DNA from: a virus
Virus record (IMG/VR): IMGVR_UViG_3300025138_000296
Location: 1-26,297 of that record
DNA length: 26,297 nucleotides
Direction: 5' to 3' (one strand)
In this document: piece after piece, positions 1,746-24,224 of the stretch
Position numbering within the stretch: the stretch's first letter is position 1
How the letters are laid out: each line of letters begins with the position of its first letter
Made by a program: the position numbers and the translations under genes
The notes under the pieces: model-generated
The model's input: the letters and a program-made list of their open reading frames with translations, nothing else
Told to the model about the DNA's origin: nothing
The model's database searches: none

Positions 1746-1760
1746 AATAAAATTAAGGTT

Positions 1761-2809: not shown

Positions 2810-2814
2810 TAATA

Positions 2815-3531
2815 ATGGCCCTAAGAAAAAGAAGAAAAAAGAGTAAAAATTATTTTACCCAAGAAACAGAAGACTATATTGTAAAATATAACAATTTAGA
2901 TTCTGTTGAAGATTCAGAATTAAGAAGTAAAATATATGAAAGGGATATTCATTACCCTTTTTTTAAACTTACCCAAAATATAATCCATACTTTTAAATTT
3001 TACCATACGGAAGTTACAGATTTGGAACATCTCCAACATGAAATTATTACTTTTCTTTTATCTAAAATTCATTTATTCGATCCTACTAGAGGAGCAAAAG
3101 CATATTCATATTTTGGTACTATAGTAAAAAGATGGTTAATTTTATATAATACTAAAAATTATAAGAAAAAAATTAATAAAGTAGGGGTAGACGAATTATC
3201 AAAAGAAGGTTCATCCCATGTTTATAGCATGGGGGATAGTAGAATAAAAAGTGATTTAGATAAGTATGTAGATATTTTTATAGGTCATGTATCAGAAAAT
3301 ATATTTGAATTATTTCCTAAAAAAAATGATGCCCAAATAGCGGACGCAATTTTAGAATTATTTCGTAAAAGAGAAGATTTAGAAGTATTTAATAAAAAAG
3401 CACTTTATATTTACATAAGAGAAATGGTAGATGTAAAAACCCCAAAAATCACTAAAATAGCTGATAAATTACACGATATATTTAAATCCCAATATATATT
3501 TTATTTAGAAAATGGCTATACCAGATTCTAA
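2815..3531 (+). CDS. 55: T4 gp55-like late-transcription sigma factor
   Basis: 238 residues resembling T4 gene product 55, the reduced sigma factor that recognises late promoters with host RNA polymerase core. Residues 16-26 (QETEDYIVKYN) and the block 46-112, from HYPFFKLTQNII through FKFY, HEIITFLLSKI, FDPTRGAKAYSYF and the following KRWLI, are the region-2-like core typical of gp55 in marine T4-like phages. A Lys-rich stretch follows (114-122). As in gp55 there is no classical sigma region 4. T4 gp55 works with the sliding clamp and the co-activator gp33; neither is encoded here. The gene closes the early/middle unit, and the first ATATTTATAA element lies 17 bp after its stop, so late transcription appears to begin right behind it. 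Confidence 0.88.
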   Translation: MALRKRRKKSKNYFTQETEDYIVKYNNLDSVEDSELRSKIYERDIHYPFFKLTQNIIHTFKFYHTEVTDLEHLQHEIITFLLSKIHLFDPTRGAKAYSYFGTIVKRWLILYNTKNYKKKINKVGVDELSKEGSSHVYSMGDSRIKSDLDKYVDIFIGHVSENIFELFPKKNDAQIADAILELFRKREDLEVFNKKALYIYIREMVDVKTPKITKIADKLHDIFKSQYIFYLENGYTRF

Positions 3532-3547
3532 AACCCTCTTTATATCA

Positions 3548-3558
3548 ATATTTATAAT
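3548..3558 (+). promoter_or_regulatory. Candidate late promoter element ATATTTATAAT, copy 1
   Basis: Lies in the 38-bp gap between the sigma factor gene and the first late gene, starting 22 bp before the ATG at 3570. The same core occurs in three further late-block gaps. It contains TATAAT (3553-3558) on the + strand and TATAAATA on the complement. Confidence 0.6.
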
Positions 3559-3569
3559 CAAAAAATATT

Positions 3570-3926
3570 ATGGGATCATTAGACAATGTAATATTCGGAA
3601 AGAAAAAATTTTCGGATATATTAAGTGAAATTTATGATAATCAAAAAAGAAAAGAAACTCAAATTACTGGGTTAATTTCTGAATTAAAACCACTTATAAA
3701 TGATATAGGGGACGCAACTTTAATTGTACCACTTATTAAAGAATATATGGAAATTGGCGTAAGAAACGATGAACAATTAATTAAAATGGCTACGATAGTA
3801 CAGCGTACGCTTAATAATAGTTCTAGTGAAGATTCATTGGGTATAACAGAAGAAGAAAAAGCTGAATTAATAGCTGAATTAGATAAGCTTAACGAAAACT
3901 TCGAAGGAAATAAAGATGAAAAATAA
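3570..3926 (+). CDS. Conserved phage protein of unknown function, first late gene
   Basis: 118 residues, mostly helical. The N-terminal segment SLDNVIFGKKKFSDIL leads into a helix, then the segment IGDATLIVPLIKEYMEIGVRND (about residues 46-67), which looks like the conserved core, and an acidic tail (EEEKAELIAELDKLNENF). I recall similar proteins next to baseplate genes in marine T4-like phages, without assigned function. It sits directly behind the first late promoter candidate and overlaps the spike gene by 11 bp, so it may help assemble the baseplate hub. That role is inferred from position alone. Confidence 0.75.
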   Translation: MGSLDNVIFGKKKFSDILSEIYDNQKRKETQITGLISELKPLINDIGDATLIVPLIKEYMEIGVRNDEQLIKMATIVQRTLNNSSSEDSLGITEEEKAELIAELDKLNENFEGNKDEK

Positions 3927-5151
3927 TATTGGAATTTCAGGTTTAAATAATTCTTTAATGGGGGGAGATAATTCTGCCTTAATTAAAAATTTACAAGCCG
4001 TATCTTCTGTAATAAACTATGTTAGGGTTAGTGATATTATTTTAAATGGAAACCACCCCAAATGGTCATTTTATGGTGGTTGGAGTAGTATTGGAATTAT
4101 AGAATTTACAGGATTTGAAACCTCTGGAGAGGTAAATGATGGTTTTGCTTTACCCCTTTTTCCTAATATTAAACATTATCCTTTAATTGATGAAACAGTT
4201 ATAATATTTGCTTTAAATAGTAAAGATGGAGAATTACCTAGTTTAATACCTGGTTCTTCTGATACTAAAACATTTTTCTACCTAAACCCAGTAAATATTT
4301 GGAATAGTCAACACCATAATGCTTATCCAAATCCTTTATCTCCGGGGCAAACAGACCCCCCGACACCCTTATTTAATTCCCCATCTGAAAAAACTTTTAT
4401 AGAAAAATCAAACATTTCTCCACTTTTACCTTTCCCAGGTGACATGATTATAGAAGGTAGATTTGGAAATTCTATTCGTTTAGGGAATACGGCTAAAATA
4501 GAAAAGGGTAAAAGTAATAATTGGTCAACAGCAGGTAATAATGGAGACCCTATTTCTATAATTAGAAATGGACCTAGTCCTAATACTGAAACTAATGGGT
4601 GGGTACCCACTGTAGAAAACATAAATAGAGATTTATCTTCTATTTACTTAAGTTCAACCCAAAGACTACCTTTAATTAGCAGCATAGAAAATTATAAGGC
4701 ATTTACAACACCACCAGTAGCTATACAACAATATAATAAACCACAAATTATTTTAACCTCAGGTCGTTTAGTATTTAATACTTTTACAGATGATATAATT
4801 TTATCTTCAAAAAATCAAATAGCTTTAACATCGGTTAATAATATAGGTATTTCTACTAAGAAAGGTGTTATTGTTGATAGTAATAAAATAAAATTAGGTA
4901 GTAAATTTTCTTCTCAGTCCGTAATACTAGGAAATGATTTTATGGATCAATTTGAAGAATTATTAAAAGTATTTGATAATTTACTTTCTTCATTAGAAAG
5001 CTTAAGGGATTGGCCCGGTGGTGCACCTGTACCTCAAGCTATAGTACCTCCTATGGCTACAGCAGCTAGAGGAGTTATAGAAAGCATATTAAATTTAGTA
5101 GCGGATGAAAAAGCTCCATTATTATCTGATAAGGTAAAAGTAGAAAAATGA
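3916..5151 (+). CDS. 5: Baseplate central spike/hub protein, gp5/VgrG-like OB-fold, no lysozyme domain
   Basis: 411 residues. Residues about 35-110 look like the OB-fold of gp5/VgrG/phage base V proteins (strands around VRVSDIIL, SIGIIEFTGF and the Pro-rich PLFPNIKHYP, then DETVIIFALNS). A second conserved block is GDMIIEGRFGNSIRLGN near residues 175-191. Residues about 270-340 are short strand repeats (IILTSGRLVFNT, DIILSSKNQIALTS, IGISTKKGVIVDS, KIKLG), the pattern of the gp5 C-terminal beta-helix needle. The last 70 residues are helical with a PVPQAI motif. T4 gp5 (575 residues) has a lysozyme domain between OB and helix; I see none here. It would form the trimeric tip that pierces the outer membrane. 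It overlaps the genes on both sides, by 11 bp and by ATGA. Confidence 0.75.
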   Translation: MKNNIGISGLNNSLMGGDNSALIKNLQAVSSVINYVRVSDIILNGNHPKWSFYGGWSSIGIIEFTGFETSGEVNDGFALPLFPNIKHYPLIDETVIIFALNSKDGELPSLIPGSSDTKTFFYLNPVNIWNSQHHNAYPNPLSPGQTDPPTPLFNSPSEKTFIEKSNISPLLPFPGDMIIEGRFGNSIRLGNTAKIEKGKSNNWSTAGNNGDPISIIRNGPSPNTETNGWVPTVENINRDLSSIYLSSTQRLPLISSIENYKAFTTPPVAIQQYNKPQIILTSGRLVFNTFTDDIILSSKNQIALTSVNNIGISTKKGVIVDSNKIKLGSKFSSQSVILGNDFMDQFEELLKVFDNLLSSLESLRDWPGGAPVPQAIVPPMATAARGVIESILNLVADEKAPLLSDKVKVEK

Positions 5152-6698
5152 GAATTATTGCCCAATACATATTATCTAATGGTTACATAGTCGACATACG
5201 GACTAACGGTATCCAAAATCAGGCGTTATTAACAGATAATTTAGGGTTCCCAATTCAAGAAGGACCAAAAAATTTTGGGGCATCTGATGCTCAACTAGTT
5301 AATCAAATAATAACAGATTATCAACCTACTGGGTTAAAAAATGATAATAATAGTTGGGAAGTTTTACCTACTACAGTAGAAAGATTAGGGCCACCTGATG
5401 CAAAACCTCCATTAGTAAGAGAATATAAAGTAGAAGGTAGAATAGCTAATAAAGATACTCAAGAACCGGTTATTGGGGTAAAGATTTCAATTGAAACCCA
5501 ATTACCAAAAGAAGATAACCCCCTGGTTAACGAACCTAAAACTTTTAAAACTGAATCGGATGATAAAGGAAGTTATATTTTAACTTTTAAAATAAGAGTA
5601 GAAGAAACGAAAGAGGATGTTTTTCACGTATTAGAAGTTCCAAAAATTAAATTTGATGGTCTTAAACAAAAATTTGCTACTGAATCAAAATCCCCCTATA
5701 ATTATATCAGTTCCTCAGAGCAAATAGTAAAATCTAGTTTAGATGTAGTATTATTAAAGCCTTTTATAGCGGATTTAAAAAAAGAAACTACTAAATATCA
5801 AAATATAGGTAATAAAGAAATTGCAAATTTAAAAAATATATTACCCAAAGATTCATTCCAATCTTTACAAAAAGGTGTAGGTAAAAAAATAAAAGATTTA
5901 GTAAAAAAATATATGCCCCTAATTATAGGGATGATTGCAGAGTTTGGTATTAGTAAACTAAGGGAAGGGATTGAAAATAAATTTAAAGATTTTAGTAAAA
6001 AAGATTGCCCTAGCCCCGATAGACTTAAAAAGTTAATTAAAAAAAGAAACCAAATAGTAAAAATATTAAATTCTATTTATAAATTTGTAGATGCTCTAGT
6101 AAAAATTACAGGTATAGTTTTAAGTCTTTTTCAAATATTTAAATTAGTAAAAAATATTACAGTAAATATACCTGTACCACAAGCAATAGGTACACCCCCA
6201 GCTAAAGATTTTGGTGGTCTTATATCATCTTTACCCATGAGTGCAACTTTAAAAAGTTCTAGTGCCCTAGATCAATTTGAAAAATTTATCGCTAAATATG
6301 AAGGACTAACTATTATGATTTTATCTATTTTAACTGTATTAAGGGCAGTTTTAAAATTAGCTATTGATTTACTAAAAGGATTAGATGCATTATTACAAAT
6401 TTGTGCCCAAGATTATTTAGATAAAGAAGAAATTACTTTAGAAGAAATAGATGCTGAATTATTAGCATCTTTAGATGAAAATGAAGAAGTTAAATCAGAT
6501 CCTTTTATAAATGGGTTTAAAATTAGTGTAATGGAAACACAACAAAAAGTTGGTTCATTAAAACGTAGACAAGCAGTAGCTAAAAATCAAAAAGGAATTA
6601 TTTTATTAAAAGGAGAATCCTCATTTAGTGCTAATGATAAAATTTTAATAGATGAACTTAAATTTTATATTACACAAAACAATTTAAAAGCTAACTAA
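5148..6698 (+). CDS. Virion protein with carboxypeptidase-regulatory-like beta domain and hydrophobic helices
   Basis: 516 residues. The N-terminal 90 residues are mixed and unassigned. Residues 92-147 resemble a carboxypeptidase-regulatory-like/CNA-B beta sandwich (YKVEGRIAN, EPVIGVKISIE, DDKGSYILTF). From about 245 the chain is helical with three hydrophobic stretches: 254-267, 302-336 and 385-418. Around them are CPSPDRLKKLIKKRNQIV (287-304) and PVPQAIGTPP (342-351). The tail is acidic (425-450), then mixed. The start overlaps the spike gene by ATGA, so the two are made together, and both contain a PVPQAI-(x)n-PP motif. It may be a spike- or hub-associated protein, possibly one meeting the host membrane. 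Function is inferred from context; I do not recognise a named T4 counterpart. Confidence 0.65.
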   Translation: MRIIAQYILSNGYIVDIRTNGIQNQALLTDNLGFPIQEGPKNFGASDAQLVNQIITDYQPTGLKNDNNSWEVLPTTVERLGPPDAKPPLVREYKVEGRIANKDTQEPVIGVKISIETQLPKEDNPLVNEPKTFKTESDDKGSYILTFKIRVEETKEDVFHVLEVPKIKFDGLKQKFATESKSPYNYISSSEQIVKSSLDVVLLKPFIADLKKETTKYQNIGNKEIANLKNILPKDSFQSLQKGVGKKIKDLVKKYMPLIIGMIAEFGISKLREGIENKFKDFSKKDCPSPDRLKKLIKKRNQIVKILNSIYKFVDALVKITGIVLSLFQIFKLVKNITVNIPVPQAIGTPPAKDFGGLISSLPMSATLKSSSALDQFEKFIAKYEGLTIMILSILTVLRAVLKLAIDLLKGLDALLQICAQDYLDKEEITLEEIDAELLASLDENEEVKSDPFINGFKISVMETQQKVGSLKRRQAVAKNQKGIILLKGESSFSANDKILIDELKFYITQNNLKAN

Positions 6699-6702
6699 TT
6701 TA

Positions 6703-6713
6703 ATATTTATAAT
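6703..6713 (+). promoter_or_regulatory. Candidate late promoter element ATATTTATAAT, copy 2
   Basis: Lies in the 28-bp gap after the 516-residue protein and starts 24 bp before the ATG at 6727. It is identical over 11 bases to copies 1 and 4. Confidence 0.6.
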
Positions 6714-6726
6714 AAATCATGTAAGT

Positions 6727-7119
6727 ATGAAACTAAATCACTTAAAAAAGATAATAAAACAAGCAGTTAAAGAAGCAATTCAAGAAGAAATGAAAGATAT
6801 TCTTTTAGAAGCTGTAAAATCTCCAAAACAAACAGTTATCGAAACTAGAACATCTGCACCCTTAAAAGTAGCAGATACACCTGGGCCAATGAACCCTATG
6901 ATGCAAACTTCAATGCCCGAAGATAATAAAATGGCTATGAGAGAAAACATCCAAAATGTATTAGGATCAATGATGCCAGGAGCAAATGGAACAATTAATG
7001 CAACAACCACTGATGTCCCTATGAGTGTAACACCTGGAATGGATACAATGTCTCCAAATGGAAAACTTCCAGCAGGAAATGTTAGTATAGACCAGATAAT
7101 GGGATTAATGAAAAGATAA
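6727..7119 (+). CDS. Small Met/Pro-rich protein, probable virion or assembly factor
   Basis: 130 residues. The first 32 form a Lys/Glu-rich amphipathic helix (MKLNHLKKIIKQAVKEAIQEE). The rest is low-complexity, rich in Met, Pro, Thr, Asn and Gly, with repeated MSVTPG/DTPGPM-type turns, and is likely disordered, ending in a short helix (IDQIMGLMKR). It is the first gene after late element copy 2 and precedes the gp25 gene by 10 bp. This suggests a small baseplate component or assembly chaperone, but I do not recognise a family. Confidence 0.65.
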   Translation: MKLNHLKKIIKQAVKEAIQEEMKDILLEAVKSPKQTVIETRTSAPLKVADTPGPMNPMMQTSMPEDNKMAMRENIQNVLGSMMPGANGTINATTTDVPMSVTPGMDTMSPNGKLPAGNVSIDQIMGLMKR

Positions 7120-7129
7120 ATAATAAATT

Positions 7130-7537
7130 ATGGCATTTGGAGCAAAAAGAGTATTTCCTAGGGATTTGCAACCTAGAGTTGCTATTGGGTTTAATTTACC
7201 TATTAATGGTGATGCTGTTTTTACCTCAAACTACCAAACTAAGGATTCTATAAGAAATAATTTAATTAATTATTTTTTAACAAATCCTGGAGAAAGACCA
7301 TTAAACCCTGAATTTGGAGGTGGGTTAAGAGAATTTATTTTTACCCAAATACAAAATGATAATGTTGAATATTTAAAAGATGATATCCAACAAAAAATAG
7401 AAGAAGAATTTGGAAGAATTAATTTATTATCTCTTGATATTCTTCAACAAACAGATCATAATTTAATTACAGTTCAAATAAAATATAATATACCTAATAC
7501 TGGAATAAATGATGAATTAGAATTAAACTTTTCATAA
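7130..7537 (+). CDS. 25: Baseplate wedge protein, gp25-like
   Basis: 135 residues, the usual size of the T4 gp25/P2 gpW family. The family signature is present: an N-terminal strand region, a helix SIRNNLINYFLTNPGERPLNP (residues 40-60) followed by EFGGGLREFIF, then an alpha-beta segment ending in the paired strands of LITVQIKYNIP. gp25 is a core wedge protein that sits next to the sheath-initiating ring and holds gp6. Its stop overlaps the gp6-like start as TAATG, fitting production of the two interacting proteins together. Confidence 0.93.
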   Translation: MAFGAKRVFPRDLQPRVAIGFNLPINGDAVFTSNYQTKDSIRNNLINYFLTNPGERPLNPEFGGGLREFIFTQIQNDNVEYLKDDIQQKIEEEFGRINLLSLDILQQTDHNLITVQIKYNIPNTGINDELELNFS

Positions 7538-9375
7538 TGGCTATAAATAGAAATATATCATATTTAAATAAAGATTTTACGGATTTTAGAAGTGAACTAA
7601 TTAATTTTTCACAAACCTATTTTCCAAATACTTATACAGATTTTAGCAATACTTCCCCTGGTATGATGTTTATGGAACAAGCATCATATGTAGGTGATGT
7701 TCTTTCTTTTTATTTAGATACTCAAGTACAAGAAACATTTCTACAATATGCTAAACAAAGTAATAATTTATATGAATTAGCTTATATGTTTGGTTATAGG
7801 CCTAAAGTAACAGGTTTAGCAAGTGTATTATTAGAATTTTTCCAAGTAGTACCCGCTATAACATCAGGGGGTGAAAGGGTTCCAGATTTTAGTTATTCTA
7901 TATTAATAGATAGTAATAGTACTATTTCATCACAGGATGATCAATCATTTATAATAGAAGACCCAGTTGACTTTTCAGTTTCTAGTTCATTGGACCCAAC
8001 AGAGGTTACAATATCTCAAATTACTGGAAATGAACCTGAATTCTTTTTATTAAAAAAAACAAGAAAGGCTTCATCTGGTGTAGTAAATACCACTACTTTT
8101 ACTATAGGTAATTATTCTCCTTTCCCTACTATTGAAATAGATGCTAGTGATGTAGCAGAAATTATAGATGTATTTGATTCTGATGGCAACCAATATCACG
8201 AAGTAGATTATTTAGGGCAAGAATTAATATATGATAATATAAAAAATACAAATGTAAATGACCCAAATAATTATTTGAGTAGTAATGATACACCTTATAT
8301 TTTAAAAACTAAACAAACTCAACGTAGATTTGCAACCCGTTTTTTAAATGAAACAACATTGCAAATACAATTTGGATCAGGCACCCCAGGGGATACAGAT
8401 GAAGAAATAATTCCTAACCCTGATAATGTAGGCTTAGGTTTACCATTTGAAAAAAATAAATTAACTACGGCTTTTTCTCCTACTAATTTTATATTTACTA
8501 ATACTTATGGTATTGCTCCTTCTAATACTACTTTAACAATTAGATATTTAGCAGGTGGGGGAGTAAGTTCTAATATAGCAGCAAACTCACTAACAAGTTT
8601 AGATAGTATTAATTCTAGATTTATTAATAGTAACTTAACACCAGTTACAGCCCAATTTGTTTTTGATTCTCTGGCAGTTAATAACCCAACAGCAGCATCG
8701 GGAGGCCAGGATGGTGATACTATAGAAGAAATTAGACAAAATACTATATCTAATTTTAATTCACAACTACGTAATGTAACTGCTGATGATTATTTAGTAA
8801 GAGCACTAAGTATGCCAGCTAAATTTGGTGTGGTGTCAAAAGCCTATACTCAAAAACCAAAAGCTGAAAGTGCTGACACTACTTTATGTATTTATGTTTT
8901 AACCTATGATGTTGATAGAAAATTAATAGCTCCATCTAATTCATTAAAACAAAATCTTAAAACATATCTTAATCAATATAGGATGATTGGGGACTCAATT
9001 GATATTAAGAACGCTTATGTAATTAACATAGGATGTGAATTTGAAATAATAACACTTCCTAATTATAATAATAATGAAATATTAGCTAACTGTATTACAG
9101 AAGTTCAAAAATATTTTAATATTAATAAATGGCAAATTAATCAACCTATTATTATTAAAGATATTGAGATTATTTTAGATAATGTAAATGGAGTTCAAAC
9201 TGTAAATAAAGTACAAATAATAAATAAAACAGGTACTACATTAGGGTATTCAAGATATGCCTATGATGTTAGTTCCGCAACCTCAAAAAATATAATATAT
9301 CCTTCTTTAGATCCTAGCATTTTTGAAGTTAAATATTTAAACGAAGATATAAAAGGTAGAGTAGTAACAATATAA
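7537..9375 (+). CDS. 6: Baseplate wedge protein, gp6-like (baseplate J family)
   Basis: 612 residues, close to T4 gp6 (660). The N-terminus is typical: ISYLNKDF, then LINFSQTYFPN, SPGMMFMEQASYVGDVLSFY (about residues 43-62), and QVQETFL followed by ELAYMFGYRP. The baseplate J segment lies around residues 390-430, with GDTIEEIRQNT and RNVTADDYLVRALS. The C-terminal part contains the gp6/gpJ segment covering the dimer region. gp6 forms the inner ring of the baseplate by two kinds of self-contacts. It follows gp25 with a 1-bp overlap and precedes the next structural gene by 2 bp. Confidence 0.92.
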   Translation: MAINRNISYLNKDFTDFRSELINFSQTYFPNTYTDFSNTSPGMMFMEQASYVGDVLSFYLDTQVQETFLQYAKQSNNLYELAYMFGYRPKVTGLASVLLEFFQVVPAITSGGERVPDFSYSILIDSNSTISSQDDQSFIIEDPVDFSVSSSLDPTEVTISQITGNEPEFFLLKKTRKASSGVVNTTTFTIGNYSPFPTIEIDASDVAEIIDVFDSDGNQYHEVDYLGQELIYDNIKNTNVNDPNNYLSSNDTPYILKTKQTQRRFATRFLNETTLQIQFGSGTPGDTDEEIIPNPDNVGLGLPFEKNKLTTAFSPTNFIFTNTYGIAPSNTTLTIRYLAGGGVSSNIAANSLTSLDSINSRFINSNLTPVTAQFVFDSLAVNNPTAASGGQDGDTIEEIRQNTISNFNSQLRNVTADDYLVRALSMPAKFGVVSKAYTQKPKAESADTTLCIYVLTYDVDRKLIAPSNSLKQNLKTYLNQYRMIGDSIDIKNAYVINIGCEFEIITLPNYNNNEILANCITEVQKYFNINKWQINQPIIIKDIEIILDNVNGVQTVNKVQIINKTGTTLGYSRYAYDVSSATSKNIIYPSLDPSIFEVKYLNEDIKGRVVTI

Positions 9376-9377
9376 TT

Positions 9378-10529
9378 ATGGCAATATATAAATTATTTCC
9401 TTCTAAAGACACTTCAATATATTCATTTTATCCTACAATGAATACAGGGATAGATCCTATTATGGAAATAGGAAATTTGAATGTAAACTATGATCCTACA
9501 CCACAGGTATTTAGATTTTTAGTAAAATTTGATCAAAATGAAATTGGGGATGTTATTGATAATAAAGTAGGAGGAACTCAATTCTCTAGTAGCTTAAAAT
9601 GTTTTATAGCTCAAGCTCAGGGGATTGTAATGGAAACAGAACTAGAAGTATATCCTATTTCGGGATCATGGAATAATGGTTCTGGTACATATTTAGATTC
9701 ACCTTTAACTACTAATGGGTGTAGTTGGAATTTTAGAACATTTAATGGAGGTAATGAGTGGGATATAGATGGAAATTATCCTACTTATGTAACAGCTTCT
9801 TGGTCAGGCAGTAATATAGGTGGAGGTAATTGGTACACAGGTTCTAGTGACCCTCATAATACTAACATTGAAGTAAGTCAAACTTTTGATTTAAGAACTG
9901 AAAAAGATATAAATATAAACGTTACTGATATAGTAAAAGTTTGGTATTCTAGTTCTAAATCTATTGGGAGTTTTACTAATATAGCAAATGAAGGATTTAT
10001 AGCTAAATGGGAGGATGCGATTGAATTTAGTTCAGCAGAAGCACTCCAACCTATAATGCAATTTTATTCAGTTGATACTAATACTATTTACCCACCGACC
10101 TTAGAAATTAAATGGGATGATTCATCTTATAATGCGGGAGAATTAAAAGAAATATCTACTACGGATGTATTTGTATCCCTAGACAACAACCCAGGAGTTT
10201 TTTATAGTCAAAGTATTAATAAGTTTAGATTAAATGTAAGACCTGAATTCCCAGATAGAACATATCAAACTTCTTCTAGATATACCTCTAATTTTGCATT
10301 GCCAACTACATCTTATTATGCTGTAAAAGATTTAGATACTAACGAATTTATTATAGATTTTGATGACCAATTTACTAAAATTAGTTGTGATAATACAAGT
10401 AATTATTTTTCTTTATATATGAATGGTTTTGAACCTGAAAGATATTATAAAATTTTAATTAAGACTATTGTAAATGGTAGTACTATAATTAAAGATGAAG
10501 ATTATTATTTTAAAATAGTTAATGGGTAA
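9378..10529 (+). CDS. Structural protein with DNRLRE-like beta-sandwich domain
   Basis: 383 residues. The N-terminal 230 resemble the DNRLRE/carbohydrate-binding-like jelly roll seen in phage and surface proteins: KDTSIYSFYPTMNTG, a strand with FRFLVKFD, a middle rich in Trp, Asn and Gly (GSWNNGSG, NEWDIDGNY, GGGNWYTG), a strand IVKVWYSS, and GFIAKWEDAIEF near residues 206-218. The C-terminal 130 form further beta strands (FRLNVRPEFP, YYAVKDLDTNEFIIDF). It follows gp6 where T4 has gp7 and gp8, so it is probably a wedge-peripheral or receptor-related protein. No close T4 equivalent is visible. Confidence 0.72.
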   Translation: MAIYKLFPSKDTSIYSFYPTMNTGIDPIMEIGNLNVNYDPTPQVFRFLVKFDQNEIGDVIDNKVGGTQFSSSLKCFIAQAQGIVMETELEVYPISGSWNNGSGTYLDSPLTTNGCSWNFRTFNGGNEWDIDGNYPTYVTASWSGSNIGGGNWYTGSSDPHNTNIEVSQTFDLRTEKDININVTDIVKVWYSSSKSIGSFTNIANEGFIAKWEDAIEFSSAEALQPIMQFYSVDTNTIYPPTLEIKWDDSSYNAGELKEISTTDVFVSLDNNPGVFYSQSINKFRLNVRPEFPDRTYQTSSRYTSNFALPTTSYYAVKDLDTNEFIIDFDDQFTKISCDNTSNYFSLYMNGFEPERYYKILIKTIVNGSTIIKDEDYYFKIVNG

Positions 10530-11098
10530 TGACTGAAAAAAGAATAGATTTAAAGAAAGATGTGTTTAGTAAAGCTCAATACATAAAAACTATAAATACT
10601 AGTTTTAATGAATTAGGGGTCACATCTATTTCTGAGGATCTTCAACAAGAAACTAGTGTTGAAGAATTTTTTGAATTATATCAACAATTATTTTATGAAA
10701 TCCCAGCAGAGGGGGATACAAATTCTCATAGATATTTAGTAAAAGAAAGTGGAGAATATATTAATTTTGATGAACAATTAGAAGAAATTCAAGCATTAAG
10801 AGAAGAAATTGCCCAACTAAGAACTGAAATTTTAGGATTACAAGTCCAACAAATTGAAAAAGATACGGGTCAATCTTTAGGTATAAATATAGATAGTTTA
10901 ACTAATCAATTTGGAGGTTTAACAACAAGCTTAGAAGCTAATGAAGCAGCTATAGCGGCATCAGTTCAAAATAAACTTGCCCCAACCACAGATACTTCTA
11001 AAAACCAAGGATCTTCTACTCAAGTAGGAGGATTTGGTGGGAATACTGGAGGTAGTGGAGGAGCTGGAGGAGCTGGAGGAAATAGTGGAGGTTATTAA
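10529..11098 (+). CDS. Coiled-coil structural protein with glycine-rich tail
   Basis: 189 residues. Residues 1-75 are a helical N-terminal domain (EEFFELYQQLFYEIP around 45-59). Residues 82-118 are a coiled coil (LEEIQALREEIAQLRTEI) suited to forming a dimer or trimer. Residues 120-150 are a second helical part. The last 35 residues are almost only Gly, Ser, Asn and Ala (GGFGGNTGGSGGAGG). The start overlaps the previous stop (TAATGA), and the giant tail gene follows after 3 bp. This points to an adaptor that joins the wedge to the giant protein or helps it fold. No enzymatic motif is seen. Confidence 0.75.
   Translation: MTEKRIDLKKDVFSKAQYIKTINTSFNELGVTSISEDLQQETSVEEFFELYQQLFYEIPAEGDTNSHRYLVKESGEYINFDEQLEEIQALREEIAQLRTEILGLQVQQIEKDTGQSLGINIDSLTNQFGGLTTSLEANEAAIAASVQNKLAPTTDTSKNQGSSTQVGGFGGNTGGSGGAGGAGGNSGGY
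11057..11080 (+). repeat. Short tandem repeat (GGAGGAGCT)n coding the Gly/Ala tail
   Basis: Two full copies of GGAGGAGCT (11057-11065 and 11066-11074) and a partial third (GGAGGA). The unit is a multiple of three, so expansion or loss would change the length of the glycine tail without a frameshift. Confidence 0.7.
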
Positions 11099-11101
11099 AA
11101 T

Positions 11102-14100: not shown

Positions 14101-17100
14101 TTATATAGGAGATCCTAGACAATTTTCATCATCTGCTAGAAACTACCCAGATTTAGATACCTTAAGAGATTCTTATTTTAATAAGTATATAAAAAGTTAC
14201 GATTTAGTTGATTTTATTAGATTAATAAAATTCTTTGATAATTCATTATTTAAAATGATTAAAGATTTTACTCCAGCTAGAACAAGTTTAGCATCTGGTG
14301 TAGTAGTAAAACAACATATTTTAGAAAGAAATAGACAAAGACCAGCTCAAGTTGAATTTTCAAATGTTACTTATACTGGTTCCGTAAAATCACAAGCAAG
14401 AAATTACGATACTGGATCTGGAGACACAGGTCAATATGAATTTAATAATGGATCTTCAATATATAGATTTAGTGGTGGAACAGGAGGATCTTTTGAAAGA
14501 TATAATGGTCTTTCTACGTCTCCTTCAGCTTCAATTTTAGGATTATCTAATAGATTTAATTTAACTCAAAGTTGGAGTGAATCTATAGATGGATCAGTAG
14601 CTAATGCTATTAATAATAGTGGCTCATTTCAAAATCATGGAACCATATTATTAACTAATCAGGATGAATTTTATGATGGTATATTTAGTGGTTCTTCTCT
14701 TCAAGTAACTAGACAAAATCTTAACCCAGGTTGTGACCCTTATTTAAAACCAGCAGATGATGGTGTTGATTATAATTTCTTATTTTTTAGTAATGGATAC
14801 CCTTATGATGGTACTGTAGATGAAACTTCATTTTTAGATATTAATAACTACCCAGTATCGGGAGATGCTTGGATATATTCCGAATATAAAAGCATTGGTA
14901 GTGGTATTGAGAGCGCACAATGGGTTAAATATATTAAATTATCACCACGTGATGCAGATGGACGTTTTGTATTAAATTATTTTGCAGGCATACCAGATTT
15001 AAGAATAGAATTTACTGAGGGAATAATAAAATATATAGTTACAGATATATTATTAAATCCTAATTATGTTTTACTTACTATAGATAAATTCCAACCCGAT
15101 GCTGAATTTACATCATCAGTAGATGGAGGTTCAGAAAACTGGAGTCTTCTAGCTCATGGAAATTTTATGAAAGAAGGAAATAATACTCTTGACTCACATG
15201 CTAAATATGGTTTTGCTAATGCGGTAGCAACAGAAACTCAAGCTTTAAAATTCTTTAATGGTGTTTTAAAAGATGAACTATCCTTTTTCGATACAGGATC
15301 AACATATGATGCAACTGACCAAAATTGGAACCTACAAGGTGGGAGATATGGAACTTATAGCCCAACAAGAACATCTAATATACCATGGGCAATATCAGGT
15401 TCTATAAAATATAGTGCCTCTGCTGCAGATCTTAATGCAACAGCATCAGGATTATATCATTCAGGTAGTACTTTTACAGGATTTAAAATGTCAGGGGTTT
15501 TCCCACCTTCAGATGCAATGATAAATACTGTACCATTTTCAAATGAAACCCCACAACCCTTTCAAATATGGCAAACGGATTTCATGAAACATTTTAAAAG
15601 AACAACTTTTAAACCATCCCCATCTATAATACAACTCCCAGATGGAGTATTTGATAATGGTTTAAACCCCTTAATTCCAGGAAATTCCGGTTCTGGGGTG
15701 GTAGGCTTACCAGGAGGAGGACATTCTAGAATACTTATTCCAGGAACTGCTTCACTTGATTTCCATTTTCCATATTTACAATTTTCGGGGAGTGAATTAA
15801 CTTTAAATGATGTAGCAGAAATCCAACCAGTACCTCTTTCGGGAAGTATTAGAGGTAGTAATGAACCTTTAAAAAATACAGATTCTATAAACACATATAC
15901 ACCAGGGGGTAATATAAACCCATCTGCAATAGCGGGGCCAGGATTTTTTAACTTTTTCCCTATTGAAGACGGAAGTTATAGTGCATCTATGGGAAGGATA
16001 GAAAATCCAATCGCACTGATTGATGGGCAAACTCCTATATATTCGGTACCCTTAGGAACTATTTATGATAATCCTTTATCTTCATTAGCTAATCAAAATA
16101 CTCATGATCTTGCATCATTTGTTTATAATGCTTCAGTACAGTTACCAGATACAAATCCAAATTTTCCATTAACTGCTAAAGTATATGGTAACCCAACAAT
16201 TTTTTCTTTAAGTGCATCTATTGAATTATCTTGTTCATCAGCAGCTAATATTACAGCTTCAATTGAATGGTGTCGTGATTCTTCACCTGATATTAATACA
16301 GTATGGTATTTAAGTAATAATTTATTCGGTAAAGCTTCTACACCGGGTCATATTTCATCTTCAGGACTTTTAGGGAATTCTGATGATGGAGAAGCAATAA
16401 ACGAAATGACTTCAACCGGACTATCTTTTAGAGCTGTAGCTTGGGGTGATGGAGATGATCATAATATTGCATATAAATTAACTAAATTTGAAGTTTCTGG
16501 GTGGGAGACACTTAAAGGACCATTACGACTTGATTTGGAAAACGGTTCTACTCAATCTCCAAATTTTGCGTCTTATGATATTGTATTAGATGATGATACA
16601 ACATCAGATACAACTGTAAAAGATAAAACATATGGTATAAGAGGAACGCAAAATACTCTTTTAAAAAATCAATGGTTTATAGGAAATAGAGTAGTTGAAG
16701 AATGGCCAACTATTGATTTTACAGCTCATTTAAAACGTACGGGATCAGATGGAGAATTTTTAATTACATCTTCAAACTTATTAGAATCACAATCTTGTGG
16801 ACCAGGTTTATCTGCTGTGTTCCCTGATAGCCCTATTTTAGATATTTTACACCCAACAGTAACCCCTAGCTCTTCTATAAATAATGTAGGAGATATGTAT
16901 TTTATAGAATATTCGGGTAGTAATCCTCAATTTCCTACTAATATACCTAATGTAAAACCAAATTTATTCCTACAAGGACCAGCATTTACAACCCAATCAA
17001 TTAATTCAAGTGGGTTAAGTGGCTTTTTAAATGGATATGTTTATCAATTTGGTGGAGGTAGTAGTAACCCTAATGGAAGTTTTACAGAACCTGGATTATG

Positions 17101-19717
17101 GCTTACAGAATTTGCATTTCTTAATTATGCAAGTGGACAAAGTTCCCAACAAGGTATTTTTGATCTTTTTGGAGATGTTAATATTATGTCATTTGGAACA
17201 ACATCAGACACTGGTAGCAAGATTATAATTTCACAATCTTATGACTTACCTAGTGGGTCAAATCAAGAAATGACTGCATCTCTTTCCTTAAGAAATTCAA
17301 ATGATATAGAACAATATGGAAATATAGATGTTAACTTAAATCGAGTATTTATTTCTGCTAGTAATCAAGAGGGTGAATTGCTTTGGGAAGCACGTTATGG
17401 AGCTCAATATGGAGGATTTCCATATGAAGCAAGTGATAATTTTAGACTTACTGTAGATATAAGTAGAAGTTTAAATATGAATTTATCTATAACAGAATAT
17501 ACCCATAGTATAGTACCACATCCTTCTAGATTTTCACCTATATCCCTCCCAATGGCATATGGTAATTATAATGTACCTAGTCTTGATACTTCAGTAGTGT
17601 CTAATTTCTTTGGAATAAATGATGAAGAGGGTGGTAATATTTTACCTTTCTATTTAGCTTTAGATTGTCAACCTACTTTAAATAATTATATTAATAGCAG
17701 ACCCAGTTCATATATAATGAATGTGTCTTATAATAATATAACAGGATCTATAACACCCGTAAATTTTTTACAAATTTTATCCGGAAGTGCAACTAAAGCA
17801 TCAGTACCAGATTCAAATTATTCTACAGCTCGTTCTATTATTCCTAGATATGATGGGAGTAAAAGTACTAGTGCACAGTATAATATATGGAGTCCAACGG
17901 ATAAGGGAACATTTGGAAAATTACCTACTATTGATTTAAGGAAAACATATTTTTCATATTTTAACCAAATTGAAGATCCTTACCCAAATATTAATGATAA
18001 AATTAAATTAAATGTTCAATATTTAATAGATGAAGAAGGTAATGCTTTACCACCTGCTTTAGAGGGAACAAGTAGAACTATATTTGAAAGAGTTTATCCT
18101 CCAAAAGCAGGAGGAACGGTTGCAGTAGAAACATCAGATAAACTACTTAAAGCATTAAATTCAAATTTTGAGATATCAGAAGTAGGTAATTATTATGCAC
18201 CTATTATGTACTCACAAACAAGTAGTAGAAATTATTCTAGTACAATACCTTTATCGGGATCAGGAAGAATTTCAAGATATGACAATAATGATGCTAATAG
18301 CTTTGATTCATTTGCCTTTACCGCAATTGGTACTGCTTCTAATGCCCCAGTAACACAACAAAGATCATTTTCATATAAAATCGCTCCTACACAAGATTTA
18401 CAACTTAAAACTGCTGCTGGTGTAAACACATACAATACTTCTAGTACTGCGGGAATAATATTTTATTCTGCTTCAACTTCTGAAGCTCCTAATGGATTTG
18501 ATTTAAATAATACTCAACGTTTAACTTTAGAAACACAATTTACAACTACATACATTTATGATACAGATAGAACACGCAATGAAATGAGTGTATCTATGGC
18601 TATGAAGAGTGGTAGTTTAAATTTACCTTTTAAAGTAAAAGATGTTAAATTGTCAATACAAAAAGGAGATGGATCAATCCAACCATTAGGTTCAGTGATA
18701 AAGCAAAGTTGGTTAGGGTTTTTAGGAGAAAAGTTTAACCAAAACAATCAATTTTATAATTATAGAAATTCATGGCCTTATAAAGAAAGTACAAATTTCC
18801 AATTAAAAGAAGATCAAACTATGACAATGACTTTGGATTGGGAAATGTATCATTTTTTAAGGGATAAAGGTGTATACCTTAATGGTGGAGATGCACAATA
18901 TAGAAACTCAGATTTTTTAGCACTTATTTGGACTATAGAAGCAGAAAATGATTATATTATAAAAAGTAATGATAAAATTCATTGGGAACTATCGGGTAGT
19001 GCAAAAAGAGCTTCTGCAGGGAATCAACCGGATGCTGCATTTTTCCCAAATTTATTTCAAGGAGAACATACCCCATCAAGAATAACTTCATATGGGGCGT
19101 TAGATCATTTACTCAGTACTGATAATAGATCTACTGCACCCTTTTGGATTTTTACAGGTTCTGATAATAACCCTTCTTTCCAATATGGTGATATTATATC
19201 ACAAAAAATATTAGTAATGTCTTCCTCTAATATGAATGAAGCGTATGGCGCAGAATTTTATCAAGGAAATTTACCTTATACACCTGGTGAATCCGATATA
19301 TTTCCAACAGGATTAGAACCACCAGGTACTAAATTTGATGATATAGTGTATCCTTTACAATTAGAAAAAGGAGATGAAATAAGATTTGCAAATAATGAAA
19401 ACTATACTTATACTATAGAAGAAGTAATTAAACCATCTGATAATATAGAGTGGTATCAAGGAAAGAAAGTAGGAAGATTAAAAATAATATTAAATAAAGA
19501 TGTACCTAGTGGAGTAGATTTGAATTTCTTTTTAATAAGAAGAAAAATACCTAATGCCAATAGTGTTTATTTAGGTAGTACTTTCCCTTATGGAACTAAC
19601 CTATCAGCTTCATCAACACCTGGTATTCTTTATCCTGATTTTCCAACAGAACTATTAGAAAATAGTGCCTCTATATTAGTAAATGAATTAATTAGTAAAG
19701 GAATAATAACATCTTAA
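11102..19717 (+). CDS. Giant tail/baseplate structural protein (2871 residues)
   Basis: The largest gene of the window. Residues 1-400 are beta-rich with an early YIENYVYDENNN segment. Residues about 445-590 resemble a P2 gpI/tail-protein-I module: YDNLWIYTKDI, SKDLVADAIRDFGIKLY, and YLLKTKGTIAGLRALITSYG, which is its usual GT-start helix and loop. Residues about 640-850 look like a LamG/concanavalin-type sandwich (VQFRFKP, a Trp pair, then GSFQEYRMFIPRIS). Residues about 1040-1080 contain FTPARTSLASGVVVKQHILE, and near 1195 EFYDGIFSGSSLQV, both motifs I associate with giant tail proteins of marine T4-like phages. The rest is Ser/Gly/Thr/Asn-rich beta structure with repeated SGS turns. The C-terminal 200 hold ending strands (FFLIRRKIPN). 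It likely occupies the gp7/gp10 role in the wedge and carries receptor-facing domains. Confidence 0.8.
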   Translation: MEEKNITIEQLNPTSFEFQNYVQSDESLIASSDLDTVFSQSTDYIENYVYDENNNLIDSTLPCLLYTIKEGDVLITPTKELENKGYTQGVYNILYNFYRKRLSSDFGFKYYIKEISSDRTEIKLDSNFIIDENIISSTEEFISYRENNNYFVDFYLNFGNNKTVIANNVKLDTTLEDNPTVLIKLYEPLPEEFDVKTELWVIEEISSPQLYKITFPNKIVEIQDFTYISGPNFNLNVKEQTGKSGQLFSYNTLVNSDITSSTQQIQNLLNEKQINININYENYNEFIHFSSAKTRLENFYYKVGLIESASNQLNTYLGQVTSTTSTTSAFSSSVKVLTSQIDSVVNNFDGYEYFLYFNSGSSKSYPKQNPEGPPYLLQSTGSTEVLEWLGNATPGSIYYGGQALTASNYDEANDDYLYDAIPEYLREDPDNRKYELFVDMVGQHYDNLWIYTKDISNKFNADNRLEFGISKDLVADAIRDFGIKLYSNNFNTEDLYTAFLGITPTSNKFPFPNITSTLPVSSTGSEYIETKVTSSQSDIIPLNDVNKSLYKRIYHNIPYLLKTKGTIAGLRALITSYGIPDTILRINEFGGKDKNEAQDYDLKQKVFNFAFNTGIDASPHNIITSSFDPSQDFRSGFPSSPNTVQFRFKPAPIPPAVNNLPNSLIRYSQSLWLADDNDNTFATPGAAVVLEYTGSGFRTGSHSGSIASPFDTWGTLKFYPNAQLNSGITCSVAAPFFNGDWWSAQVTFTGSNTTDSTASLFSANEIDGKIGFRGSEVKLGLDARDWDRQDFAALNMFANRTINSKIYKPFSGSFQEYRMFIPRISESKFLDYVVNPYSNEGNTINSTPNELMFRAALGSQLTTGSTSQTTFTSIHPKVTGSAVQITQSFTNDSNYHMINFSTGNRQWVPNKEDIFQDQVPSGIKNRVTDKIGIRAHILPERPTGSNANIDVLSPYRSIEQDSFVSQSYTPDVNYLEVAISPQNQINDDINAQIGYFNMGDYIGDPRQFSSSARNYPDLDTLRDSYFNKYIKSYDLVDFIRLIKFFDNSLFKMIKDFTPARTSLASGVVVKQHILERNRQRPAQVEFSNVTYTGSVKSQARNYDTGSGDTGQYEFNNGSSIYRFSGGTGGSFERYNGLSTSPSASILGLSNRFNLTQSWSESIDGSVANAINNSGSFQNHGTILLTNQDEFYDGIFSGSSLQVTRQNLNPGCDPYLKPADDGVDYNFLFFSNGYPYDGTVDETSFLDINNYPVSGDAWIYSEYKSIGSGIESAQWVKYIKLSPRDADGRFVLNYFAGIPDLRIEFTEGIIKYIVTDILLNPNYVLLTIDKFQPDAEFTSSVDGGSENWSLLAHGNFMKEGNNTLDSHAKYGFANAVATETQALKFFNGVLKDELSFFDTGSTYDATDQNWNLQGGRYGTYSPTRTSNIPWAISGSIKYSASAADLNATASGLYHSGSTFTGFKMSGVFPPSDAMINTVPFSNETPQPFQIWQTDFMKHFKRTTFKPSPSIIQLPDGVFDNGLNPLIPGNSGSGVVGLPGGGHSRILIPGTASLDFHFPYLQFSGSELTLNDVAEIQPVPLSGSIRGSNEPLKNTDSINTYTPGGNINPSAIAGPGFFNFFPIEDGSYSASMGRIENPIALIDGQTPIYSVPLGTIYDNPLSSLANQNTHDLASFVYNASVQLPDTNPNFPLTAKVYGNPTIFSLSASIELSCSSAANITASIEWCRDSSPDINTVWYLSNNLFGKASTPGHISSSGLLGNSDDGEAINEMTSTGLSFRAVAWGDGDDHNIAYKLTKFEVSGWETLKGPLRLDLENGSTQSPNFASYDIVLDDDTTSDTTVKDKTYGIRGTQNTLLKNQWFIGNRVVEEWPTIDFTAHLKRTGSDGEFLITSSNLLESQSCGPGLSAVFPDSPILDILHPTVTPSSSINNVGDMYFIEYSGSNPQFPTNIPNVKPNLFLQGPAFTTQSINSSGLSGFLNGYVYQFGGGSSNPNGSFTEPGLWLTEFAFLNYASGQSSQQGIFDLFGDVNIMSFGTTSDTGSKIIISQSYDLPSGSNQEMTASLSLRNSNDIEQYGNIDVNLNRVFISASNQEGELLWEARYGAQYGGFPYEASDNFRLTVDISRSLNMNLSITEYTHSIVPHPSRFSPISLPMAYGNYNVPSLDTSVVSNFFGINDEEGGNILPFYLALDCQPTLNNYINSRPSSYIMNVSYNNITGSITPVNFLQILSGSATKASVPDSNYSTARSIIPRYDGSKSTSAQYNIWSPTDKGTFGKLPTIDLRKTYFSYFNQIEDPYPNINDKIKLNVQYLIDEEGNALPPALEGTSRTIFERVYPPKAGGTVAVETSDKLLKALNSNFEISEVGNYYAPIMYSQTSSRNYSSTIPLSGSGRISRYDNNDANSFDSFAFTAIGTASNAPVTQQRSFSYKIAPTQDLQLKTAAGVNTYNTSSTAGIIFYSASTSEAPNGFDLNNTQRLTLETQFTTTYIYDTDRTRNEMSVSMAMKSGSLNLPFKVKDVKLSIQKGDGSIQPLGSVIKQSWLGFLGEKFNQNNQFYNYRNSWPYKESTNFQLKEDQTMTMTLDWEMYHFLRDKGVYLNGGDAQYRNSDFLALIWTIEAENDYIIKSNDKIHWELSGSAKRASAGNQPDAAFFPNLFQGEHTPSRITSYGALDHLLSTDNRSTAPFWIFTGSDNNPSFQYGDIISQKILVMSSSNMNEAYGAEFYQGNLPYTPGESDIFPTGLEPPGTKFDDIVYPLQLEKGDEIRFANNENYTYTIEEVIKPSDNIEWYQGKKVGRLKIILNKDVPSGVDLNFFLIRRKIPNANSVYLGSTFPYGTNLSASSTPGILYPDFPTELLENSASILVNELISKGIITS

Positions 19718-19725
19718 AAAATAAC

Positions 19726-19735
19726 ATATTTATAA
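19726..19735 (+). promoter_or_regulatory. Candidate late promoter element ATATTTATAA, copy 3
   Basis: Lies in the 37-bp gap after the giant gene and starts 29 bp before the ATG at 19755. The 10-base core is identical to the other copies; the next base is C rather than T. It is preceded by AC, as is copy 4 (ACATATTTATAA). Confidence 0.6.
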
Positions 19736-19754
19736 CATATAATTATATAACAAA

Positions 19755-20426
19755 ATGGGATATTTAAACAATTCAGTAATAACAGTTGATGCTATTCTTA
19801 CCAAGAAGGGAAGAGAGTTATTAGCTAAAAATGATGGTTCTTTTAGAATCACTCAATATGCTTTAGCTGATGATGAAATAGATTATACTTTGTATAATCC
19901 AATTCACCCATCAGGTTCTGCTTATTATGGTGAAGCAATTGATAACATGCCTTTATTAGAAGCATTTCCGGATGAACAACAAATAATGAAGTATAAATTA
20001 GTAACTTTACCTAGAGGTACAGCAAAATTGCCTGTATTAGATTTAGGATATGGTGCTATAACTTTAAAACAAGGAGCTCAATTAGCGATTACTCCACAAA
20101 CATTAAATTACTTAGGTAATGCTCAAACATTTGAAAGCTCGGGTTACTCGGCAACAATTGGAGATGTGCGTTTACTTAATCAATATAATGGTGTAGGAGT
20201 TAATAGTAATGCTGCTACAGCTGCTAACCAATCCTCAATAGATACCATCGGCACTAATGTGTCTAAAACGGTAATTGGAACACAGTTTAATATAACTGCC
20301 ACCACTGTAAATACTTTATTTGGATTAAATCAAACCACGTTAAGAACAACACTTACAGTAGTTGGATTAGATAGTGGAGCTAGATTAACAATCCCAGTAA
20401 CAATAACTCAAAACCAAATAACATAA
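19755..20426 (+). CDS. Conserved virion structural protein
   Basis: 223 residues. The first 110 look strongly conserved among marine T4-like phages as I recall them: GYLNNSVITVDAILTKKGRELL, a segment ending ITQYALADDEIDY, then YYGEAIDNMPLLEAFPDE and YKLVTLPRGT. The second half is Thr/Asn/Gln-rich and beta-structured, ending in an Ig-like pair of strands (LTVVGLDSGARL, IPVTITQNQIT). It opens the third late unit and precedes two paralogous structural genes by 1 bp, so it is likely a tail-surface or fibre-attachment protein. A precise role is not known to me. Confidence 0.75.
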   Translation: MGYLNNSVITVDAILTKKGRELLAKNDGSFRITQYALADDEIDYTLYNPIHPSGSAYYGEAIDNMPLLEAFPDEQQIMKYKLVTLPRGTAKLPVLDLGYGAITLKQGAQLAITPQTLNYLGNAQTFESSGYSATIGDVRLLNQYNGVGVNSNAATAANQSSIDTIGTNVSKTVIGTQFNITATTVNTLFGLNQTTLRTTLTVVGLDSGARLTIPVTITQNQIT

Positions 20427-20427
20427 T

Positions 20428-21498
20428 ATGGGCTTTAAACAATTCGATCCAGAAGATTTTGTAGTAAGTGCTGACACAGTAACTTCTACTGTTTGGTCAA
20501 ATCAAAGTGTGACCTTAAATAATTATTTTACTTCTTCTATTCAAAGAGAAGGTAGTTCGGGACCATATTATCTTAATGTATTTCAAACGGGATCAGATGA
20601 TTCAACTTCTGCTGTTCAATTTGCTATTGCATATGCTAATAAAAATGGTGGGGGTGGATTAAGATTTGATTCATCTGTATCTGGTAGAACAGCAACTAGA
20701 TCTATATATGGACAATACAGAACATTAATATTAGAAGATGAACTTTCAAGTTTTAAATGGGGTCCTACTTCTACAGGTAGTAATGATAATGATTTTTATG
20801 TTTTAAGTGTTGAAAGAGCAAGATATAAAGAAAAATTATTACCAGGTTCTTTTAATTTAGTATTATCTAGTAGTCAAGACAATATAGGGGCTTTACATTT
20901 AACAGATGACTCAGGATATGTAAGTTTACCTACTTATTATGGTACTCAAAGAGCTTATAATGTAATTAGCGGCTCAGATGGTTCACCTCATAATGGAAAT
21001 GGATACTCTTACACAGGTTCTTATGGTTTATTCCTCCCAGATATTTCAACAATATTATTAAATGCAAATGCTTTAGATGACTCTTCAATTCCAGGTGCTT
21101 CAGGTATTAATAATGGTGCAGGAATAGGATTATCAACCTCAGTAATTGAAAATACAAATGGTGATAATCCAACCAAATTATATGTTCATATATCATCTTC
21201 TAGTGGAAACTCAGGTGGTGAAATTTTTCAATTAAATTCACAAGAAACTATTACATCTGATTATGTATTTGTAAGAGCAAGAAATGCAGAGTTTAATTAT
21301 TCAGAAAATCCATCATATATTTCAGGATCAACTGGTGAAGTAATATATAACTACTTTATTAATAATCCACAAACCTATGCTACAACAGTAGGAATGTATA
21401 ATGATAGTAATGAATTATTAGCTGTGGCTAAATTATCAAGACCTCTAGTAAAAGACTTTACAAAAGAAGCACTTATTAGAGTTAAATTAGATTTTTAA
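20428..21498 (+). CDS. Tail structural protein, paralogue A
   Basis: 356 residues, beginning MGFKQFDPEDFVVS. Residues about 20-200 are beta-rich with a likely fold core around LILEDELSSFKWG and SGSFNLVLSS-type strands. The middle is Gly/Ser/Asn-rich. Residues 282-356 form a C-terminal module with EFNYSENP, SGSTG, TTVGMYND and ELLAVAKLSRPL. This module and the first 12 residues are shared with the next gene. There is no enzyme motif. It is probably a surface or fibre-type protein of the tail, sharing an attachment module with its neighbour. Confidence 0.75.
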   Translation: MGFKQFDPEDFVVSADTVTSTVWSNQSVTLNNYFTSSIQREGSSGPYYLNVFQTGSDDSTSAVQFAIAYANKNGGGGLRFDSSVSGRTATRSIYGQYRTLILEDELSSFKWGPTSTGSNDNDFYVLSVERARYKEKLLPGSFNLVLSSSQDNIGALHLTDDSGYVSLPTYYGTQRAYNVISGSDGSPHNGNGYSYTGSYGLFLPDISTILLNANALDDSSIPGASGINNGAGIGLSTSVIENTNGDNPTKLYVHISSSSGNSGGEIFQLNSQETITSDYVFVRARNAEFNYSENPSYISGSTGEVIYNYFINNPQTYATTVGMYNDSNELLAVAKLSRPLVKDFTKEALIRVKLDF

Positions 21499-21503
21499 GA
21501 TGA

Positions 21504-22517
21504 ATGGCGGCTTTCAAACAATTCAACTCACAGGACATAATAATATCTCCCCTAGAGGTAAATAAGGGTTTTACATTTCAGGGAAATGCCTTAACTGGGT
21601 CTGATGTTGGTATTGATAGGTTTTTAGGAAAAAAAGGAAATTATTTAACTTCTGGAAGTTTTCTTACTGGCAAAATCAGAGACCAACAAGTCCCACAAAC
21701 TTTAATTTATGATTCAGTAAAACATCTTTACTATTCTAATTATCTTTTTGGTAATGATGGATTTATTTCTAATGCTAATACTGCTAGTAAAGGATTAGAT
21801 GGAATATTAAGAGGAGTTGGATATCAAACTAATCATTATAATTACGAACAAAATACTGTTTATCCCAATAAACTTTTCCCTACTGCAAGTAATTCTCCTA
21901 TAGGAGTAATTTCATTCCCCTCAAAATTATTTGGGGATTATATCCAACCTAATTCTATAAGAATAGAAAGCCCAGTAAGTGGTACTATTATTGATGATGG
22001 ACAAGGACGTTTATTAATGGATGATAGTGATCCTAATTTTATAGGTAATGTAGGAGATTTATCTTATGTAGGTAATGTAATATATCAACATGGTATAGCT
22101 ATAATAACAGATGATATAGTTAGAGGATTTGACCCTTCAGGATCTGCGTATGGGGCTGCTACATATGGTTATAGTTTATATGGAGGAGCTTTAAGGGATG
22201 AATTAGGATTTATTTCTAATTTTATAGAACTTGTTAATATAACTTGTTCATTCTCTAGTTCATATAAATTATTTGAAACACAATATAAATGTACTTTAGG
22301 GGAAAGCGAATTTAATTATAGTTTAAACCCAACTGTATTATCTGGAAGTGGAGGTAAATTATATGATGAATTTACTGGTTCATATTTTGATCCATATATT
22401 ACTACAATAGGTATGTATAACCATAATTATGAATTATTAGCTATAGGTAAGTTAGCTAAACCTTTACCAACATCTAGAACAACAGATACAACAATTTTAA
22501 TAAATATAGATAGATAA
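21504..22517 (+). CDS. Tail structural protein, paralogue B
   Basis: 337 residues starting MAAFKQFNSQDIIIS. The ATG at 21500 is in another frame; the one at 21504 gives the FKQF start shared with paralogue A. Residues 263-337 align without gaps to residues 282-356 of A: by eye 29 of 75 positions are identical, including EFNYS, SGS, TTIGMYN, ELLA and the KL-PL pair. The central 240 residues differ and are rich in Gly, Asn and Tyr (NYLFGNDGF, YSLYGGALRDELGF). The pattern of shared ends and divergent middle fits a duplicated fibre or decoration protein whose exposed part has diversified. Confidence 0.75.
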   Translation: MAAFKQFNSQDIIISPLEVNKGFTFQGNALTGSDVGIDRFLGKKGNYLTSGSFLTGKIRDQQVPQTLIYDSVKHLYYSNYLFGNDGFISNANTASKGLDGILRGVGYQTNHYNYEQNTVYPNKLFPTASNSPIGVISFPSKLFGDYIQPNSIRIESPVSGTIIDDGQGRLLMDDSDPNFIGNVGDLSYVGNVIYQHGIAIITDDIVRGFDPSGSAYGAATYGYSLYGGALRDELGFISNFIELVNITCSFSSSYKLFETQYKCTLGESEFNYSLNPTVLSGSGGKLYDEFTGSYFDPYITTIGMYNHNYELLAIGKLAKPLPTSRTTDTTILINIDR

Positions 22518-22519
22518 AC

Positions 22520-22530
22520 ATATTTATAAT
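22520..22530 (+). promoter_or_regulatory. Candidate late promoter element ATATTTATAAT, copy 4
   Basis: Lies in the 28-bp gap before the fibre gene and starts 26 bp before the ATG at 22546. It is preceded by AC as in copy 3. An AGGAT at 22541-22545 just before the start is a possible weak ribosome binding site. Confidence 0.6.
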
Positions 22531-24165: not shown

Positions 24166-24171
24166 AATTAC

Positions 24172-24200: not shown

Positions 24201-24224
24201 AATTATTAACTTTAAAATAAAAAC

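Follow-up and report, generated by a model that had tools for sequence, protein, structure and literature searches.

The sequence ATATTTATAA is very likely a late promoter of a large, distantly T4-like and mostly marine phage group: it is of a diverged T4 type, and its reader would be the sigma factor that the phage encodes next to it. The hosts of this group are probably Bacteroidota. The motif was found in the window analyzed here, a whole virus record of 26.3 kb (26,297 nucleotides; IMGVR_UViG_3300025138_000296), which is the only available contig (26 kb) of this phage. As the window is the complete record, genome-wide motif counts were made in relatives.

In the proposed mechanism, the core (A)TATTTATA(A) has, in most cases, a Y next to it and A-rich sequence after that. 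The polymerase of the host, equipped with the phage sigma factor from 2815–3531, would recognize and melt the box without a -33/-35 element. Transcription would begin shortly after the box, so that the virion genes have a leader of approximately 8–15 nt, and early genes would be served by host-type -33/-7 promoters. Both the start sites and the timing assigned to the late promoter are predictions.

Placement of the motif in the late block

The window contains four copies of ATATTTATAA, at 3548, 6703, 19726 and 22520, all of which lie on the + strand, with none on the - strand. A re-count agrees with the sequence-only reading, which had placed the motif at these four positions, 22–29 bp 5' of an ATG; copy by copy, the ATG lies 22, 24, 29 and 26 bp from the beginning of the motif. 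Three copies had also been described as identical across 11 bases and this was confirmed: the 11-mer ATATTTATAAT is common to three copies, and the copy at 19726 has a C at the differing position. The motif-bearing gaps are 38, 28, 37 and 28 bp long and are the sole gaps of at least 28 bp from the sigma gene to the fibre gene. All remaining late junctions are overlaps or gaps of 10 bp or less, so that the proposed restriction of the motif to these four gaps holds. The 59-bp gap behind the fibre gene (24166–24224) does not carry it.

The raw count of ATATTTATAA is only mildly unusual, as 1.33 copies are expected from whole-window shuffles and 5/100 of these contained at least the 4 that were found. 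Significance rests instead on the placement of the motif. Non-coding sequence accounts for only 405 bases of positions 125–25655, and when the four gaps were dinucleotide-shuffled 100,000 times, not one shuffle produced any 10-mer common to all four.

The T4 late box is located at -13 to -6 (PMC1524935), and by analogy a start can be predicted for each copy. The core at 3548–3557 (+) would direct transcription of gene 3570 from approximately 3562, with a leader of approximately 8 nt. For the cores at 6703–6712 (+; gene 6727) and 19726–19735 (+; gene 19755), the predicted starts are approximately 6717 and 19740. The candidate core of the fibre-like gene 22546 (22520–22529, +) has a predicted start at approximately 22534 and was called from the window alone.

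Downstream of these cores lie four groups of late genes, all on the + strand. The first spans 3570–6698 (genes 3570, 3916 and 5148, with overlapping junctions). The second, 6727–19717, includes gp25-like (7130) and gp6-like (7537) baseplate wedge genes and the gene for a 2871-aa protein. The third spans 19755–22517 (genes 19755, 20428 and 21504), and the fourth consists of the fibre-like gene at 22546–24165. The 2871-aa protein is encoded by one reading frame at 11102–19717, in the baseplate/tail region, and has no PHROG match; the gene found there in Flavobacterium phage immuto is 3.8 kb.

The sequence-only reading had divided the late block into four separate transcription units. This division is unsupported, as no terminator-like structure was found in any of the four gaps, and the overall number of such structures is at chance level. 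Nested, overlapping transcripts are more likely than four isolated units because terminators are absent from the gaps. A scan with the host sigma-70 consensus returned promoter-like sites at chance number only. Outside the late block, a 126-bp non-coding gap at 1419–1544 contains an inverted repeat as well as a GGGTTATGGATAACCC hairpin with T-rich sequence behind it; the fold is no better than that of shuffles. Comparable gaps of some relatives contain CGTATATTTATAATACG-like sequence.

Conservation in related phages

Two scans identified 158 related loci, which were reduced to 88 sequences (window included; 1.32 Mb) by the removal of near-duplicates. An unsupervised comparison of 8-mers in upstream gaps and in gene bodies returned ATATTTAT, TATTTATA and ATTTATAA as the three top upstream 8-mers, so that the motif is the top signal upstream of the relatives' genes. 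Across the 88 loci TATTTATA occurs upstream 216 times, against approximately 2.3 expected from gene bodies. The same pipeline, applied as a control to part of T4, ranks the T4 late box, TATAAATA, first. In the relatives, 212 copies of ATATTTATAA lie entirely between genes and 14 entirely within coding sequence, and the distance to the start codon peaks at 22–24. The motif is thus depleted inside genes rather than equally frequent there. The core is also stringent, as single-substitution variants each have at most 13 upstream copies versus 87 for the core itself.

The sites of the window are conserved at orthologous genes. TATTTATA lies 5' of 75/80 orthologues of gene 3570 (TATTTAT in 80/80), 73/75 orthologues of gene 6727 and 11/14 orthologues of gene 19755, including that of immuto. 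Orthologues of nearby non-motif genes have it in 0/80, 0/73, 0/76, 1/81 and 0/74 cases, and the highest count among close-packed non-motif late genes is 5/77. Two orthologues of fibre gene 22546 were available and the motif is present at neither (0/2), which an exchange of fibre modules between phages would explain.

Many sites of the 88 loci are orthologues of one another and therefore not independent, which is addressed by within-genome counts. Observed motif numbers relative to the gap-shuffle mean were 23/2.2 in immuto, 15/2.4, 20/1.8 and 27/1.7 in large contigs and 9/1.7 in Mel-JY01. The enrichment in gaps relative to shuffled sequence that a promoter implies was in this way found in relatives, with a 5- to 16-fold excess over own-gap shuffles in 5/5 large genomes.

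Within the complete genome of immuto, TATTTATA is the top-enriched upstream 8-mer, and the motif is present in 14/28 gaps of the structural region versus 6/71 elsewhere (p=1.5e-5). The genes it precedes include those for the terminase, portal, sheath, tube, tape measure and a tail spike, as well as the gene that comes immediately after sigma. Of five genomes, most have the motif at the orthologues of the portal, tube, sheath and tape-measure genes, and none has it at those of ssb, recombinase, helicase, primase or sigma. Rather than being equally frequent before early genes, the motif is therefore absent before the replication genes checked. The original proposal of a phage-specific late promoter is supported by this placement before virion genes, by the rank of the motif as the top upstream signal and by a distinct, host-type early class that is described below.

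The putative late sigma factor

The proposed reader of the motif is a putative gp55-like phage late sigma factor encoded at 2815–3531 (+), a call that draws on weak profile matches, predicted fold and synteny. PHROG 234 (late sigma) is matched weakly by 8/21 homologues of this protein (best E=0.0022), and Sigma70_r2 by 13/21, with a best E=0.0056 that falls short of the curated cut-off. The immuto homologue is 47% identical and occupies the same place; this protein, KNV73_gp118 (L159:18150-18872), is annotated only as a hypothetical protein. When the sigma profile was compared with PDB sequences, no relative was found.

The protein was also modeled with AlphaFold2, at moderate quality (mean pLDDT 75, pTM 0.45). 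Residues 13–122, approximately, match sigma region 2 in 5h6x (93 aa, 2.8 A, Z 8.5) and 5wuq (93 aa, 3.0 A, Z 9.0). The best fold matches are nearly all sigma factors, but Z values of 8–10 may be frequent among helical proteins. Most of the viral proteins matched by fold are sigma factors of phages, annotated gp55s among them; the T4 gp55 structure is not among the fold matches listed. Plain Foldseek against the PDB gave weak E-values. The model supports the presence of sigma region 2 in the 2815–3531 protein. The description of a gp55-like late sigma gene directly before the first motif copy gains a predicted sigma region 2, and its gp55 part is a weak sequence match.

That the motif is a late promoter read by a phage factor other than this sigma is unlikely. 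In favor of another reader are the weakness of the match to gp55 and the huge uncultured phage LR756508, which has a sigma homologue (approximately 41% identical) and, in the 100-kb stretch examined (60–160 kb), no enrichment of TATTTATA and no clear late motif. Mel-JY01, with a sigma approximately 36% identical, is enriched for the motif. Against another reader, PHROG 234 gives no second candidate in five genomes, almost all relatives have the sigma gene directly 5' of their first late site, and the model matches sigma region 2. From its position, its fold and the lack of a second candidate, the sigma factor at 2815–3531 probably reads the motif.

A second, host-type promoter class

The Bacteroidota -33/-7 promoter has been described (PMC6847099, PMC9723704). 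In sigma-A promoters of this type, TTTG is located at -33 and TAnnTTTG at -7, and a similar class is present in immuto. There, promoters composed of TTG, 20 bp and TATATTTAGG precede mostly small genes at 60–76 kb, with A instead of the final G in the -7 box and with TTG in 12/12 early sites. In the immuto segment L159 (60001-110000), approximately a dozen near-identical TTG-N20-TATATTTAGGTATCAATAATTAAAA elements lie before small genes at 958–13900. A comparable class, CGTATATT, was seen in the relatives G001 and G002, where 13/19 and 9/13 sites, respectively, have a correctly spaced TTG.

An ordinary host sigma-A promoter with an altered -7 box could resemble the late motif, since TATATTTA is similar to TAnnTTT and the early promoters of immuto contain TATATTTAGG. 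However, the late sites do not show the -33 TTG, 19–21 bp 5' of a -7 box, of Bacteroidota sigma-A promoters. A TTG near -23 (10-bp window) is found at only 5/23, 1/15, 4/20 and 5/27 late sites, and within-genome logos of late sites (immuto, G001–G003) reveal no strong conserved upstream element. Moreover, the TAnn part is unconserved in late sites, including the T two bases 5' of the core that TAnnTTT requires. The late and early classes precede different genes, and the same motif is present in Mel-JY01, which was reported from a cyanobacterium. Collectively, these observations make the host-promoter explanation very improbable.

One candidate host-sigma promoter (TTG, 20 bp, TATATT) is present in the window at 24172–24200 (+), before the GIY-YIG-like gene 24225, with the spacing of the immuto host-type class. 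The gap at 24166–24224 may thus contain a host-type promoter where late genes give way to replication genes, but one such match is compatible with chance.

The position of the late motif relative to the start codon could suggest that it acts in RNA, as a translation enhancer or RNA-processing site. The fixed spacing of approximately 22–24 nt to the ATG in most relatives is consistent with this, as is the use by Bacteroidota of A-rich leaders instead of Shine-Dalgarno sites (PMC6847099). Yet, closely packed genes of the same blocks do not have the motif. Furthermore, it is not bound to one distance from the start codon, as it lies 41–48 nt upstream at several Mel-JY01 late genes, where some leaders contain a purine-rich, ribosome-site-like stretch. 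RNA-level action is, accordingly, a highly improbable explanation and the promoter reading is preferred.

Comparison with T4 and other late promoters

T4 late promoters consist of a single -10 box, with the -35 region unconserved (PMC2988020). The core of the late promoter proposed here is not the canonical T4 octamer TATAAATA, but TATTTATA, which matches it at 6/8 positions on the same strand, with AA changed to TT at positions 4–5. TATAAATA itself was considered as the motif of the relatives and rejected, as it occurs at shuffle level or slightly above. Similarly, TATAAYAA was rejected as a T4-like core: its downstream bases vary and in Mel-JY01 that part changes, leaving TATTTATA as the anchor.

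A point absent from the sequence-only reading is that TATTTATA is also the exact reverse complement of TATAAATA, which would allow a T4-type promoter on the minus strand that drives antisense RNA; this is extremely improbable, as the orientation of intergenic copies follows the downstream gene (26 vs 7 in immuto; 28 vs 7 in G003), the distance to the ATG is constrained, the A-rich stretch just downstream of the core is conserved on the gene strand, and opposite-strand genes carry the element inconsistently. The direct-strand T4 reading is preferred because of this orientation, the constrained ATG distance and the A-rich stretch.

The similarity to T4 comprises one stringent A+T octamer, the absence of a -35 element, placement before virion genes and a phage sigma factor. 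The differences are the A-rich stretch after the core, a very diverged sigma, early promoters of Bacteroidota type and T4-type gp45/gp33 that were undetected. In Aeromonas phage Aeh1 (CTAAATA), both the T4-type late box and gp55 have likewise diverged (PMC1524935); there the box is altered at the 5' end, whereas that described here is altered at the center. The late motif of cyanophages S-PM2 and Syn9, NATAAATA, was also identified in silico and lies upstream of virion genes in T4-like phages from the sea (PMC2984593). It retains ATAAATA, however, and these phages have g33 and g45 homologues. No paper describing the motif was found in the open-access literature searched, which leaves out most subscription journals.

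Late transcription and the sliding clamp

The sliding clamp acts as an activator of late transcription in T4 (PMC2988020). The Pfam models for gp45 and gp33 (PF02916, PF09116, PF16805), which may be too narrow, had no matches in five related genomes. G001 and Mel-JY01 encode a family B polymerase and gp44/gp62-like clamp loaders with a clamp candidate nearby. Immuto encodes a family A DNA polymerase and has a strong TATTTATA late signal; the gp44/gp62 clamp loader, gp45 and gp33 were undetected in its genome. Thus, G001 (L162–L168) and immuto (L159–L161, L181) share the late promoter and differ in the replisome. It is possible, although on balance doubtful, that the late promoter works without the replication-coupled clamp of T4 and that sigma and box survived an exchange of the replisome. 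If true, the clamp and late transcription would no longer be coupled, and the group raises the question of whether T4-style clamp coupling is needed.

The analysis provides a candidate late-promoter sequence, together with a candidate reader, for phages that are widespread and mostly uncultured and in which late genes can be called from sequence. It offers a case of sigma/promoter co-divergence from T4, and Flavobacterium phage immuto is a cultured member in which the promoter is testable.
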